Under the pieces are notes generated by a model. It did no database searches and had not been told where the DNA came from. It worked only from the letters and a program-made list of their open reading frames with translations. Made by a program: the position numbers and the translations under genes. DNA of 64,000 bases from Zoogloea sp. 1C4 (GTDB lineage Bacteria; Pseudomonadota; Gammaproteobacteria; Burkholderiales; Rhodocyclaceae): NCBI RefSeq assembly GCF_009469605.1, contig NZ_SSXU01000006.1, forward strand, positions 1-64,000. The letters run 5' to 3'. Numbering within the stretch: position 1 is the first letter of the stretch; the number at the start of each line of letters is the position of its first letter. Shown here piece by piece: positions 4,919 to 9,862 of the stretch.

Positions 4919-6334
4919 CTACTCGGTATCGAAGCCCAGCAGGCGGTTGCTGACGATGCGTTCGGCGACGCCCGGCGGCACGTCGTCCATCCACGCCCCG
5001 CGGCCGCGGCGCAGGCCGGTGAGCACTTCGGCCACGTCGATGTGCAGGTGGCTGTCGTCGTGGGGTTCGACGGCCAGGAGCTTCTGGTTCTCTTTCAGGA
5101 AGGTGAGCAGGTGGCGCAGGTTGGCCGGCACCTCCACGTTGTCGAGGGTCACCAGCGTCGTCTCGCCGCCCCGCTGCATGCGGGTGGGGTAAACATAAAC
5201 GTGGGTGTTGTCGGGGAAGAGCTTGCCGAAGGCTTCCAGGATGCCGCCCTCCAGGCCCTCGTAATACTTCTCGTCGAACAGGTAGTTGAAGTCGCGCACC
5301 GACAGCACGATGCCGATGGGCTTCTGGGTGTAGCGGCGCAGGTAGGCGCGCAGGCGGAAGTAGCGCACGTAGTCCGAGATCATCACCGTGTAGCCCAGGG
5401 AGGCCAGCAGGTCGATGCGGGCGAGGAAATCCGCGCCATCCACGTTGTCGCCGCTGATGAGCGAGTTCATGGTGATCTCGGCGAGGGACAGGATCTCCCC
5501 TTCATCCACCGCCGCCAGCTGGCTGAACTGCTTGAGGCCGGCGCACATCATGTCTTCATTGACCAGCGTCACCGGCTTGAAGCTGCCGCGCATCACCATC
5601 ACCGGCTTGCGGTAGAACAGCTCGCCCGGCACCACCACGTCGCCGGTAGGCGCAAACACCACCGCGCGGGTCAGCCAGCTGCGGATGAGGTGCAGGTTCA
5701 TCAGGCGGTTTTCCACTTCCTCGAAGTAGGGGCCCGAGAAGTGGATCAGGTCCACCTCGATGCGCTCCGAGCCGAGGCCGTCGGCCAGACCCTCGACCAC
5801 CCAGGCCGGGTGGTGGAAGTGGTGGAAGGCCCCGTGGATCAGATTGACCCCAAGGATGCCCAGCGCTTCGGACTGCTGGGCGTTGTCGTTGTCGAGCATG
5901 CGCACGTGGAGGATCACGTCGGAGGGCTCGGCGCCCGGGTGCAGCTGCAGGCGGATGCCCACCCAGCCGTGGCATTCGTTCTTCTGCTTGAAGCTGCGCG
6001 CGGTGACGGTGGCGGCGTAGGCGAAGAAGGTGGTGTTCTTGGGACGCACGTGGGCCAGCCGCTGCACCACCAGCGAGAACTCCTTGTCGAGCATCTGCAG
6101 CAGCCGGGACCGGCTGACGTAGCGGTCCGCGTGGCCGTAGATGTCGTCGCTCACCGCCATGTCGTAGGCCGACATGGTCTTGGCGATGGTGCCCGCCGCC
6201 GCGCCCACCGAGAAGAAACGCCGCGCCACCTCCTGCCCGGCGCCGATCTCGACGATGGAGCCGTACTTGTACTTGTCGAGATTGATCGCCAGCGCTTTCT
6301 GGTCGGTGCTGAGCGTGGTGTCGCGCTTGTGCAT
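4919..6334 (-). CDS. conserved protein of unknown function, 471 residues
   Basis: I cannot assign a function. The protein starts MHKRDTTLSTDQKALAINLD and contains GSIVEIGAGQEVARRFF near residue 27, which resembles a glycine-rich nucleotide-binding turn but lacks a canonical motif. No signal peptide or membrane segment is seen. Histidine-rich LIHGAFHHFHHPAWV near the middle could bind metal. The start at 6334 has a strong GGGAGGA site five bases upstream; the open frame extends to 6520 without one. A decayed copy of the last 86 residues occurs at 2417-2614, so this locus has been duplicated in the genome's history. Confidence 0.75.
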   Translation of the reverse strand: MHKRDTTLSTDQKALAINLDKYKYGSIVEIGAGQEVARRFFSVGAAAGTIAKTMSAYDMAVSDDIYGHADRYVSRSRLLQMLDKEFSLVVQRLAHVRPKNTTFFAYAATVTARSFKQKNECHGWVGIRLQLHPGAEPSDVILHVRMLDNDNAQQSEALGILGVNLIHGAFHHFHHPAWVVEGLADGLGSERIEVDLIHFSGPYFEEVENRLMNLHLIRSWLTRAVVFAPTGDVVVPGELFYRKPVMVMRGSFKPVTLVNEDMMCAGLKQFSQLAAVDEGEILSLAEITMNSLISGDNVDGADFLARIDLLASLGYTVMISDYVRYFRLRAYLRRYTQKPIGIVLSVRDFNYLFDEKYYEGLEGGILEAFGKLFPDNTHVYVYPTRMQRGGETTLVTLDNVEVPANLRHLLTFLKENQKLLAVEPHDDSHLHIDVAEVLTGLRRGRGAWMDDVPPGVAERIVSNRLLGFDTE

Positions 6335-6484
6335 GGTCTTCCTCCCTTTTGTTGTGTGCATGAACGAAGCCCGGCTCCGCTTCCGGGCAACGCAACCGGC
6401 CCGCCGGGCCGTGTTGCCGATGGGCATATCTTCCACTGCTTCCGGCGGCGCGTCGACGCCTTCGCAGGGCGATGCATACGGCAG

Positions 6485-6581
6485 GTAGGTCGGGTTAGCC
6501 CAAAGGGCGTAACCCGACATCCCGGGTCGCCTGAAACGATGGCGCGTGTCGGGTTACGCCCTTTGGGCTAACCCGACCTAC
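6485..6581. repeat. Perfect 35-bp inverted repeat with 27-bp spacer
   Basis: The left arm 6485-6519 begins GTAGGTCGGGTTAGCC and the right arm 6547-6581 is its exact reverse complement. The core GGTCGGGTTA...TAACCCGAC is the widespread extragenic repeat seen dispersed in many beta- and gammaproteobacterial genomes (family identification is from memory). Spacer 6520-6546 contains CCTGAAACGATGG, which resembles the neighbouring palindrome half-sites. The arms could fold into a long stem in RNA or single-stranded DNA. Confidence 0.85.
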
Positions 6582-6700
6582 GGCGTCTGGCTACGGTGTC
6601 TGGCCGAGGGGACGCTGGTGGCGGACGAGGTAATTACCTTTTAGCGGGGTGGGGCGGTGGTGTGGGGGCGTTCGGCCTCCGAAGCCATCCACAGGCAGCG

Positions 6701-6959
6701 TTTCTTCACGAAAATATCGATTCTTGCGGCAGGAAACGTCGTTTCAGCCCGAGAAGGCGCGATTCAGCGCCTGAAACGCGCTTTATTGCGCGCGCAACGC
6801 AGTTTCATGGCGCGTGGATTCAGTTTCAGGCGCTGAAACGATCATTCAGGCGCTGAAACGATGATTCAGGGCCCGAAACCTCGATGCGGGGGCGGGCAAG
6901 CCGGTTTCAGCGCGCGAAACGATGCTCGCCCGCCTGCAGGCGTGTTTCGCTGCCGGATG
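6701..6959. repeat. Phased array of TTTCAG-N3-CTGAAA palindromes, 20-21 bp pitch
   Basis: Clear 15-bp palindromes are centred at 6769, 6831, 6851, 6871 and 6912, for example TTTCAGGCGCTGAAA at 6824-6838. Degenerate or half copies are centred near 6707, 6728, 6749, 6810 and 6952. Spacings between neighbours are 20, 21, 41 or 62, close to multiples of 20.5 bp, or two turns of B-DNA. This places every site on the same helix face. No gene lies inside. It reads like a multi-site binding platform for one dimeric DNA-binding protein; the protein is unknown. Confidence 0.7.
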
Positions 6960-7054
6960 ACCCGGTTTGGTGGGCGCCGATGGCTGGCCTTCACGGTTTC
7001 ACCGCCTTGTCCTGCCCGCAGGTGATGCGGTGCATCGGCCGGGCTGGCCGGGCT

Positions 7055-7446
7055 TTAGTGGCGCGAGAACAGATCCCGCAGCTTGCACAGGGTGGTGGTG
7101 ATGTCGAAGCGCTGGTCGGGCAGGGGCTGGCCGGAGACGATGCGGGTGATGACTTCGGCGGGGTCGGTCTCGCCGGTGAGCATCACGTCGGTGCCGCGGG
7201 TGCGCATGTGGCGCACGAAGCCGTCGCCGGCGCTGGCGGCGACCACCAGATCCACCCCGTCGAGGGGGTGGGGGGCGTTGTCCTTGAACACGTGCAGCAC
7301 CTGCTCGGCGGAGAGGTCGATCTGGCGGGGGCGGGCAGCAGCTGGCCGGGGGCGTAGCGGGCGAGGTCGTAGAGCAGCCAGTGGCGGGCCTGGCCGGCGT
7401 GGCCGCCGACGGTGGCGAAATCCCGGGTGGCGATGGCGATCTTCAT
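7055..7446 (-). pseudogene. NifX/NifB-type FeMo-cofactor-binding domain protein, frameshifted
   Basis: The N-terminal frame begins MKIAIATRDFATVGGHAGQA and matches the dinitrogenase iron-molybdenum cofactor domain. After GQLLPA the frame fails, and the rest of the domain continues one frame over (IDLSAEQVLHVF, HPLDGVDLVVAASAGDGFV, VMLTGETDPAEVI) to the stop at 7055. The break is in a C-run at about 7325-7335; adding one C restores LLPAPRQID and a protein of about 130 residues. It is either a real single-base deletion or a sequencing error. The gene is last in the ferredoxin-nifF operon, and its role would be carrying or sensing cofactor precursors. Confidence 0.8.
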
Positions 7447-7472
7447 GGTCGGGGGCGGGGCAGTGGGTGGGT

Positions 7473-8324
7473 TCAGGGGGCGGGCCGCAGGGTGACGGCC
7501 ACGTCGCGGGGCGGGGCGAAGTAGGGGCTGCTGGTGACGAGCACCCCGGCGCCGGCCCGGGCGAAATCTTCGGCGTTGCCGGCATTCACCCCACCGGCGG
7601 CGGCGATCAGCGGCGGGCGAGGCATGCGCGCGGCGATGGCGGCGATACGGGCCACCGCGGCGACGGGGAGTTTCTCGAGCTGCAGCACATCCGCGCCGGC
7701 GTCGAGCCACAGGGCGGCTTCGGCTTCGTCGCCCACTTCCACCACGATGCGCCGCTCGGGCCACGCATTGCGCAGGCGGGCGAGGCTGGCGGCGGGGGAT
7801 TCATCAAGAAAGGCCCGGTGCTCGGCAAACACCAGCAGGGTTTCGGAGAGGCTCAGGCGGTGGGGCGTGGCGCCGCCGCACAGGATGGCCTTGATGGCGG
7901 CGGCCTTGGTGCCGGGAAAGTTCTTGCGGGTGCACGCCACCGATGCCGCCGGGTTGCCCCGCCGGGCCGCAGCCACGATGGCGGCGGTGGCGCTGGCGAT
8001 GCCCGAGAGGTACTCCATCAGGGTCTGGCTGGTCTTCCACACGGCGTGGAGGTCCGCCGCCCGGCCTTCGAGGCGAAGGATCAGCTGGCCGGCGTCGAGC
8101 ACGCTGCCACTGGCGGCCACCGGGCCGGCGACGGCGAGATCGCGCAGCTGGCCCATGCGGGCGGCTTCTTCGCTGCCGCACAGGGTCATCGGGCCCCGGG
8201 CGCGGTATTCGAGCACGCCGCGTGCATCGCCGATGCCCAGGGCAAAGGTGGTGGCGTCGCCCTCGGGGGTGTCTTCGGCGAGGATGGCTTCGAGGGCCGG
8301 GTCGGGCAGCCGGTAGGGCGACAT
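7473..8324 (-). CDS. modD: ModD, quinolinate-phosphoribosyltransferase-like protein
   Basis: The 283-residue protein has the nicotinate-nucleotide pyrophosphorylase (QPRTase) fold order: an N-terminal sandwich domain (LAEDTPEGDATT at about 15-26), then the barrel with CTRKNFPGTKAAAIKAILCGG at about 134-154, where NadC has CTRKTxPGLR. The ModD branch has FPGTK/S variants and occurs in molybdenum and nitrogenase loci. Its function in molybdenum use is not settled. Position in a NifA-type operon supports ModD rather than NadC. The gene is followed after 26 bp by the frameshifted cofactor-domain gene. Confidence 0.82.
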   Translation of the reverse strand: MSPYRLPDPALEAILAEDTPEGDATTFALGIGDARGVLEYRARGPMTLCGSEEAARMGQLRDLAVAGPVAASGSVLDAGQLILRLEGRAADLHAVWKTSQTLMEYLSGIASATAAIVAAARRGNPAASVACTRKNFPGTKAAAIKAILCGGATPHRLSLSETLLVFAEHRAFLDESPAASLARLRNAWPERRIVVEVGDEAEAALWLDAGADVLQLEKLPVAAVARIAAIAARMPRPPLIAAAGGVNAGNAEDFARAGAGVLVTSSPYFAPPRDVAVTLRPAP

Positions 8325-8741: not shown

Positions 8742-9047
8742 TCAGGCGTCGAAATGCATCCTGAGCCCGTCGAGCACGCGGGCCAGGGGCTGGTTTTCGA
8801 TGCTGCTGGGCATGTCGGGCAGCGGGTTGGGGTATTCGTAATACACGCCGTAGGTGCCGGGGCGCTGCCCGTGCAGGAAGACGTGGGCGCGCAGGCGGTC
8901 GAGCTCGGCGTGGCGCAGGGTGACGATGGCGGGGTCGGTGCCGCTGTCGGGTTCGATGTCGCAGGCTTCGCCCAGGGCCGGGTCGAAGGAAACGAGCAGG
9001 CGGCGCAGGGCGCGGTCCTTGGGCAGGGCCCAGGCGTTGGTGTTCAT
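8742..9047 (-). CDS. nif-operon protein of unknown function, overlaps nifF
   Basis: The 101-residue protein starts MNTNAWALPKDRALRRLLVS at an ATG that overlaps the nifF stop (ATGA), implying translational coupling. The ending IENQPLARVLDGLRMHFDA and the acidic middle (EPDSGTDPAIVTL) show no known motif. A longer reading to 9197 would run through nifF in another frame and is rejected. Similar small genes sit beside nifF in other diazotrophs, but I cannot give a function. Confidence 0.7.
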   Translation of the reverse strand: MNTNAWALPKDRALRRLLVSFDPALGEACDIEPDSGTDPAIVTLRHAELDRLRAHVFLHGQRPGTYGVYYEYPNPLPDMPSSIENQPLARVLDGLRMHFDA

Positions 9048-9574
9048 GGCAGCAGCTCCGGTCGGATCTGGGCGAGCCAGGTGTCGATGCGCGCTTCGGT
9101 GAGCACCGGCTGATTCACCTGGTCGAGGGCGAGGCCGAGGAAGTGCTCGCCCTCCAGCGCCCGGGAGGCGTTGAAATCGTAGCCGGCGGCGGGCCACTGG
9201 CCGATGAGCCGGGCGCCCCGGTCGCTGAGGGCTTCGTGGAGGATGCCGATGGCGTCCACAAACACGGCCGGGTATTTCTTCTGGTCGCCAAGGCCATACA
9301 GGGCGATCACCTTGCCGGAGAGGTCGACCCCGGCCAGCTGGGGCATGAACTCTTCCCAGCTCGGCTTGAGGCCCACCGACTCGCCCGGCAGCTCGCCGTC
9401 GCCGTAGGTGGGGCAGCCGAGGATCAGGGCGTCGTGGGCGAGGAATTCCTCCAGCGTGGCGCGCCCGATGTTGACCGGCGCCGCCGCCACGTCGCCGAGC
9501 TTCTTGGCGATCTGCTTGGCGATGAGGCGGGTGCGGCCGGTGTCGGTGCCGAAGAAGATGCCGATGGACGTCAT
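9044..9574 (-). CDS. nifF: Flavodoxin, electron donor to nitrogenase
   Basis: The 176-residue protein begins MTSIGIFFGTDTGRTRLIAKQ, the FMN phosphate-binding loop (FFGTDTGRTR) of long-chain flavodoxins. LGCPTYGDGELP and LYGLGDQKKYPAVFVDAIG follow, the two isoalloxazine-flanking loops. Flavodoxin hydroquinone reduces nitrogenase Fe protein in free-living diazotrophs. Its place behind a NifA-type promoter with ferredoxin, and the nearby Rnf complex that could reduce it, support the NifF assignment. Length is normal for the family. Confidence 0.93.
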   Translation of the reverse strand: MTSIGIFFGTDTGRTRLIAKQIAKKLGDVAAAPVNIGRATLEEFLAHDALILGCPTYGDGELPGESVGLKPSWEEFMPQLAGVDLSGKVIALYGLGDQKKYPAVFVDAIGILHEALSDRGARLIGQWPAAGYDFNASRALEGEHFLGLALDQVNQPVLTEARIDTWLAQIRPELLP

Positions 9575-9592: not shown

Positions 9593-9862
9593 TCAGTGGC
9601 TGGGGGGCGGGTCTTGGGTGAGCTCGTCGGGCAGGCAGCCCACTGGGTTGCCGAGGCTGCCGTCGGCGCCGGTCTCGAAGCGCACGAGGTAGATCTCGCG
9701 GCTCGGGTCGACTTCCGAATGACCGAAGTGCACCACCACGCCGCGGGCGCCGGCGGGGGCGATCAGGCCTTCTTCCTCGTCGATGCCGGGCATGCCGCCA
9801 TCGTTGAGGATGTCCTCGGCCGCAAAGACCATGTCGCCGATGTCGTACTGGGTTGCGCTCAT
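9593..9862 (-). CDS. nifZ: NifZ-domain protein
   Basis: The 89-residue protein shows the NifZ pattern: YDIGDMVFAAEDILNDGGMPGID, then an acidic/glycine turn (LIAPAGARGVVVHFG), IYLVRFETG and the terminal VGCLPDELT. NifZ domains help mature the MoFe-protein P-clusters. This copy is short and diverged, so it may be a NifZ-like paralogue with another duty. It sits 4 bp after the ferredoxin gene and 18 bp before nifF. Confidence 0.75.
   Translation of the reverse strand: MSATQYDIGDMVFAAEDILNDGGMPGIDEEEGLIAPAGARGVVVHFGHSEVDPSREIYLVRFETGADGSLGNPVGCLPDELTQDPPPSH

Follow-up and report, generated by a model that had tools for sequence, protein, structure and literature searches.

Array D is a row of 15-bp palindromes at positions 6698 to 6962 of the window (the whole 64-kb stretch of DNA that we analysed, from contig C107 in an assembly of 5.02 Mb). 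It belongs to a class of arrays that is not explained by any family we tested. The same palindrome forms four arrays in this genome, and palindromes of quite different sequence form arrays with nearly the same period, about two turns of the helix, here and in two other Zoogloea genomes. Arrays are gained and lost between close relatives. Our tentative explanation, which we prefer to the alternatives that we consider below, is that the arrays are helix-phased platforms for a homodimeric protein, with an architectural or insulating use.

A phased array of palindromes beside the nif genes

Array D has 13 units on a regular grid, six of them strong. For the strong units, every position was scored for the arms TTTCA...TGAAA alone, and at least 8 of the 10 arm bases had to match. 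The weak units were then placed by stepping along the grid by either 20 or 21 bp, whichever was better each time. None of these features has a strand:

6698..6962: array D as a whole, with 13 grid units at a period of 20.39 bp
6701..6736: weak grid units centred at 6708 and 6729, placed by grid stepping
6742..6756: strong unit centred at 6749, 8 of 10 arm bases
6762..6776: strong unit centred at 6769, 9 of 10 arm bases, consensus with 1 mismatch
6783..6817: weak grid units centred at 6790 and 6810, placed by grid stepping
6824..6838: strong unit centred at 6831, 10 of 10 arm bases, exact TTTCAGGCGCTGAAA
6844..6858: strong unit centred at 6851, 9 of 10 arm bases
6864..6878: strong unit centred at 6871, 8 of 10 arm bases
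6884..6898: weak grid unit centred at 6891, placed by grid stepping
6905..6919: strong unit centred at 6912, 9 of 10 arm bases
6925..6959: weak grid units centred at 6932 and 6952, placed by grid stepping

The fitted period of 20.39 bp leaves a residual standard deviation of 0.28 bp, and none of 3,000 sets of uniformly placed centres was as regular. Array D is also the top reverse-complement window across the 64 kb. Its dyad z is 12.8, versus less than 3 for the other of the window's two periodic candidates. There are stops in all six frames, so no open frame runs through the array, and the stretch has no match in Rfam.

A sequence-only reading had already described about ten copies of a 15-bp palindrome in gene-free DNA, at distances near multiples of 20.5 bp. 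The row is real, the phasing is beyond chance, and the stops bear out that the DNA is noncoding. The five centres that it called clear (6769, 6831, 6851, 6871, and 6912) are exact, and the weaker ones are correct to within 1 bp, with 6749 scoring the same as 6871. That reading also put all of the copies on one face of the helix. A strictly helical grid is likely but unproven: steps of 20 and 21 bp in random order would leave residuals just slightly larger than those seen (P from 0.08 to 0.42 per array).

The same palindrome elsewhere in the genome and in relatives

The earlier reading had left room both for a palindrome that is unique to this array and for one that is randomly scattered. Neither is the case. 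All eight matches to TTTCAGGCGCTGAAA with at most one mismatch lie inside three arrays, and 15 of the 23 matches with up to two mismatches lie inside four (a reversed control had 2 matches at this level). With up to three mismatches, there is a small excess: 59 forward and 59 reverse matches, where the reversed control has 36 and 41. We will refer to these as TTTCAG arrays, and the four in this genome are:

Array A: contig C47, at 107.3 kb
Array B: contig C48, at 25.1 kb
Array C: contig C53, at 505.1 kb
Array D: the window

Among 23 Zoogloea genomes, the other TTTCAG arrays are in G158, which has one, and G164, which has two. The period is between 20.34 and 20.42 bp in all seven, and for each of them, 0 of 3,000 uniform simulations was as regular. 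None of the seven contains an open frame, with stops in all six frames, which excludes coding heptad repeats for this family; several arrays of other motifs with a period of exactly 21 do contain open frames.

Across the family, 14 of 150 genomes, including this one, contain a match to two successive units, and at the same level of stringency the reversed control has matches in 11 genomes. This genome has five such matches per strand, and the other 13 have at most one per strand each. When we read the contexts of the listed family-level matches by eye, we saw no further arrays. A wider scan of contigs, from which records close to the source genome may be absent, returned 14 stretches: three true arrays, all from Zoogloea, and 11 single matches, meaning that there was no second strong unit inside 300 bp.

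We dropped the idea of a phage or plasmid origin because array D has no match in plasmids or phages, the three other arrays that were searched against plasmids have no match there, and the two-unit pattern has no match in viral contigs. Among nine array loci that we searched against Rfam, the only families found were the tRNAs that adjoin two of the arrays.

Arrays of other motifs with the same period

To sample arrays without regard to motif, we used a detector that combines a tandem period (score of at least 0.06) with an excess of reverse-complement matches (dyad z of at least 3). These cutoffs were set by hand once the known arrays had been seen. A lower cutoff was abandoned, as it gave hundreds of matches at codon-multiple periods. 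The detector found 14 arrays in 1.16 Mb from three Zoogloea genomes: four in 464 kb of this genome (D, L126, L138, and L145), three in 261 kb of G164, and seven in 434 kb of G036. It found none in 557 kb from seven other Zoogloea, namely G154 (200 kb), G158 (200 kb), G168 (77 kb), and four more (80 kb together); the one array of G158 lies outside its 200-kb sample. In a stretch of G154, we noticed long runs of G and of C at L155 2300-2900, which are probably a sequencing or assembly artefact. There were no matches in shuffled sequence. In 538.5 kb from 21 genomes of other genera, there was one match (L209 11076-11425), which we rejected as a false positive because it is a coding repeat that reads by eye as a coiled coil.

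The sample is biased in that it includes array D and the thiG array of G164, which were known beforehand (without them there are 12 arrays), and in that, for G164 and G036, certain contigs were chosen for earlier matches on them. All 14 sampled arrays have a period of 20.3-21.4 bp, with some detected at double the period, and yet their motifs are quite different. Only two other repeats in the three genomes reach a dyad z of 3; both are in G036, with periods of 13.9 (a simple repeat) and 17.9. If we remove the REP-like neighbor of L138 from consideration, its 21-bp lags remain and its dyad z is 8.5.

With arrays A, B, and C, three from G164, one from G158, and L201, we inspected 22 arrays in total. 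L201 was called an array by eye and fails the dyad test (z of 0.8). There are at least eight motifs among the arrays. One of these motifs, as a strict pattern, does not occur in any of the 274 genomes searched from the class, this one included. Searches of the open-licence papers of PubMed Central, including with Zoogloea or with iterons, listed no description of such arrays.

Gain, loss, and different motifs at the same junction

At the junction between mgtE and hemL, where G164 is 99% identical to this genome, this genome has array B and G164 has one made of a different palindrome, TTCGGCG...CCGAA, with lags of 20, 41, 61, 82, and 102. (The hemL gene belongs to Pfam's class III aminotransferases; the gene name is ours.) We considered whether the motif had been converted in place. 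The hemL array of G164 has local scores of 30 against B, 29 against A, and 28 against C, and shuffled sequences score about 18. Since it is no closer to B than to A or C, we dropped this idea, and it looks like a different array rather than an edited one. Similarly, at the nif junction where array D lies, G164 instead bears an array of GCTCCCGGTCGGGAGC in 21-bp steps, with no similarity to any TTTCAG array.

Most relatives have no array at these places. There is an array 3' of hemL in 2 of 21 loci, with none on that side in the other 19. An array lies 3' of pckG in this genome only, or 1 of the 16 loci (of 20) that are readable past the gene. At thiG, an array is within reach in 1 of 23 loci, that of G164. 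And G168 has the gene at 4919-6334 (92% identity) without an array. Because the arrays are often absent from the same place in relatives, they are not essential at those junctions.

One orthologous pair, array A and the array on C17 of G164, can be compared base by base. The aligned arrays match at 142 of 189 positions (shuffled 104, standard deviation 10), and the left flank, which matches at 139 of 187 (shuffled 119, standard deviation 13), is closer to chance than the array is. Array C aligns best, among the 15 pairs, with the thiG array of G164, in reversed orientation and with a score of 115 (L011 7534-7757 and L085 2645-2830). In both G164 and G158, pckG is on the same contig as the array and about 32-33 kb from it. 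This suggests a rearrangement that may have had the array at its breakpoint.

Flanking genes and placement

The features around array D are:

4919..6334, minus strand: flanking gene with no Pfam family, its start towards array D and about 360 bp away; present in 3 of 23 Zoogloea genomes
6483..6582, no strand: two inverted repeats next to array D, which we call REP-like by eye
7055..7348, minus strand: flanking ORF with no Pfam family, its 3' end facing array D
7473..8324: QRPTase-like gene (Pfam), upstream of the flanking ORF
9044..9574: flavodoxin (Pfam), upstream of the flanking ORF
9593..9862: NifZ (Pfam), upstream of the flanking ORF

So the nif neighborhood that had been proposed from the sequence is real. 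The ORF beside the array seems to be split over two frames of the minus strand (7055-7585 and 7183-7764), as would be the case if a frameshift had disrupted the gene or if the assembly were wrong at this point. On the other side, a short sequence at 2420-2656 on the minus strand duplicates portions of the final part of the 4919-6334 gene, in pieces with 86% and 71% identity, and an ORF at 224-550, also on the minus strand, may be the first frame of an IS3-type transposase, which it resembles by eye.

A REP-like cluster lies within 130 bp of four of the seven arrays in this genome, and there are 11 such clusters in 464 kb, by a pattern that we wrote after we had seen the sequences beside the arrays.

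Of the 21 arrays whose flanks we checked (L227 is outside this count), 16 immediately follow the 3' end of a tRNA or of a gene that matches a Pfam family. For the others (D, A, the nif array of G164, L145, and L245b), no such gene or tRNA supports a 3' placement. This is weak evidence, because most gaps in a gene-dense genome have at least one 3' end beside them. Only the convergent cases, in which the array has a 3' end on both sides, carry some weight. There are five arrays between convergent genes:

mgtE/hemL: two arrays, in two species and of two motifs
pckG/FAA hydrolase: array C
tRNA/thiG: in G164
UDG/HerA: in G164, on C2

By eye, pckG has a terminator-like hairpin about 100 bp before array C, and relatives without the array have this hairpin too.

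How the units vary

We compared 61 units from six TTTCAG arrays, excluding the orthologous copy in G158. If the two arms of a unit had been kept complementary, then dealing the arms among units at random should reduce the complementarity, and it does not (299 as observed, versus 297.5 with a standard deviation of 10.1). In other words, there are no compensatory base-pair changes of the kind expected from a structured RNA in the TTTCAG family. Single arrays give a mixed result: within-unit complementarity is above shuffled at P below 0.05 in 4 of 16, array B among them (P from 0.002 to 0.019), with the position of the dyad chosen favorably. Complementarity between neighboring arms is 263, versus 277.8 shuffled (standard deviation 9.0). 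Units within an array agree at 7.6-8.6 of 15 positions, at separations from one to six, and units from different arrays agree at 8.25 of 15.

The seven arrays had appeared to align unit by unit before we tested this by shuffling the order of the units in six arrays. In that test, the order was shared in just 2 of 15 pairs, each with P of about 0.05, so we dropped the general claim that one element was copied whole. In places, adjacent units of array B and of L097 are exact reverse complements. CTTTATTGC is a weak unit in arrays of two motifs (L010 7526-7729, window 6697-6962, and L097 1290-1490). When folded, three arrays are more stable than their shuffles, with z of -5.06, -6.44, and -7.00.

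If arms vary independently while the motif is kept across loci, then the pattern is that of the half-sites of a dimer, rather than of selected hairpins or of local copying. The variation within the TTTCAG family thus appears to fit sites for a dimeric protein better than it fits selected hairpins or local expansion. The sequence-only reading had proposed sites of this kind, and the independence of the arms suits its proposal. The binding itself, the dimeric state, any cooperativity, and the function of the arrays we infer from sequence.

Comparison with known systems

In architecture, the arrays are closest to the iterons of plasmids and phages, such as the sites of Rep and of lambda O, in which one site follows another about every two helical turns and the motif is specific to the system. 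Most iterons are direct repeats that accompany a rep gene at a single origin, whereas the arrays are palindromes, with a dyad in the consensus, at many chromosomal junctions. Pfam searches of the flanking ORFs found no gene for a replication initiator (Rep).

The parS sites are also palindromes that are bound by dimers, and the arms of the array units, GTTTCA and TGAAAC, are the same as those of the parS consensus. But the arms of parS are 2 bp apart, and those of the arrays are 5 bp apart, and the arrays occupy several loci with several motifs per genome. The idea that array D is a partition-type site is unlikely to be correct, given four arrays of the motif and others of different motifs in this genome, the lack of a ParA or ParB match in the ORFs that we tested around array D, and gain and loss between close species.

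Within BIMEs, REPs alternate in orientation. REPs are extragenic palindromes, often in rows, and usually a single sequence is present more than 100 times per genome; BIME-2 elements bind DNA gyrase (PMC2817692). The seven TTTCAG arrays are similar in that they lack an open frame and their flanking genes end outside of them. They differ in that their units are near-symmetric and 15 bp long, on a grid of 20.3-21.4 bp, with a motif that varies. Nor did we find a single high-copy palindrome: as given above, matches with up to two mismatches number 23 in the genome, and most of them are in the four arrays. PARCELs are coding repeats of 75 nt with tandem palindromes of varying motif (PMC2996958). 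The arrays are like this in having tandem palindromes of variable motif and unlike it in that none of the seven TTTCAG arrays has an open frame.

What the arrays may be

In the explanation that we favor, each array would offer about 8-13 sites to a homodimeric protein that binds DNA in a sequence-specific manner. Because successive sites are two helical turns apart, the dimers would line up along the same side of the DNA and could build a nucleoprotein complex that spans about 180-260 bp. For the array families, with at least eight motifs, there would be either distinct proteins or proteins whose specificity shifts. The use is likely to be in local chromosome architecture or insulation and not in the control of promoters, as the arrays are mostly at 3' ends and several are between convergent genes. 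A difficulty is that many motifs in one genome would require many proteins. Other points against this explanation are that relatives often lack an array at the corresponding place, that the three folded arrays are unusually stable, that within-unit complementarity exceeds shuffled in 4 of 16 arrays, and that the regularity does not significantly exceed that of a 20/21 mix.

Alternatively, the arrays may be repeats of the REP/BIME type, selfish or neutral, that are copied and reshuffled among intergenic niches, with gyrase, Pol I, or IHF binding them incidentally. We consider this possible but doubtful. It would account for the gain and loss between close species, for different motifs at the same junction, for the REP-like clusters near four of the seven arrays in this genome, and for the alignment of array C with the thiG array, which is at a different locus, as if a block had moved. 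Yet there are at least eight motifs here, and the main one makes just four arrays in this genome, while REPs usually have one sequence; also, a two-turn period that is common to unrelated motifs is left unexplained. Somewhat less probable to us is that the arrays have no function and arise from replication errors in which templates are switched or hairpins are extended, giving units of about 21 nt. Neighboring units that are exact reverse complements, in array B and L097, are what this would produce, and it fits with motifs that differ from array to array, including the strict motif that none of the 274 genomes searched from the class contains. It does not fit with TTTCAG units that are no more alike within arrays than between them, with adjacent arms that are no more complementary than shuffled ones, or with the preservation of the array above chance in the orthologous pair.

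The arrays could also act in RNA, as chains of hairpins that terminate the two convergent transcripts or shield their 3' ends. The five convergent sites and the stable folds are consistent with this, but the TTTCAG family shows no compensatory change, pckG already has a terminator-like hairpin of its own before the array, the arrays that we searched match no Rfam family, and a helical grid would have no purpose at the level of RNA. We think that this is improbable. We give hardly any credence to the idea that array D is an operator array for the gene at 4919-6334. The array is upstream of that gene, but five of the six other TTTCAG arrays are 3' of unrelated genes or a tRNA, and G168 has the gene and no array.

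A broader version of the protein-binding explanation is more speculative, and we doubt it about as much as we doubt the selfish repeats. It holds that the arrays are a previously undescribed class of chromosomal nucleoprotein platforms, with dozens of arrays per genome (an extrapolation from our samples) and about ten palindromic sites in each, spaced by two helical turns, whose motif is replaced between sister species at a given gene junction and whose dimeric readers diversify. By analogy, and as part of this same doubtful reading, the class might be a bacterial counterpart of fast-evolving satellite DNA and the proteins that bind it.

If no protein binds the arrays, then they clearly exemplify a process that generates repeats with a constant unit of about 21 bp, and this too would need an explanation. 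If a protein does bind them, then Zoogloea, which are floc-forming bacteria of sludge, would hold a distributed and fast-turning feature of the chromosome in which the spacing is kept and the sequence is not. The arrays would then be a natural set for testing how helical spacing contributes to the organization of intergenic DNA.
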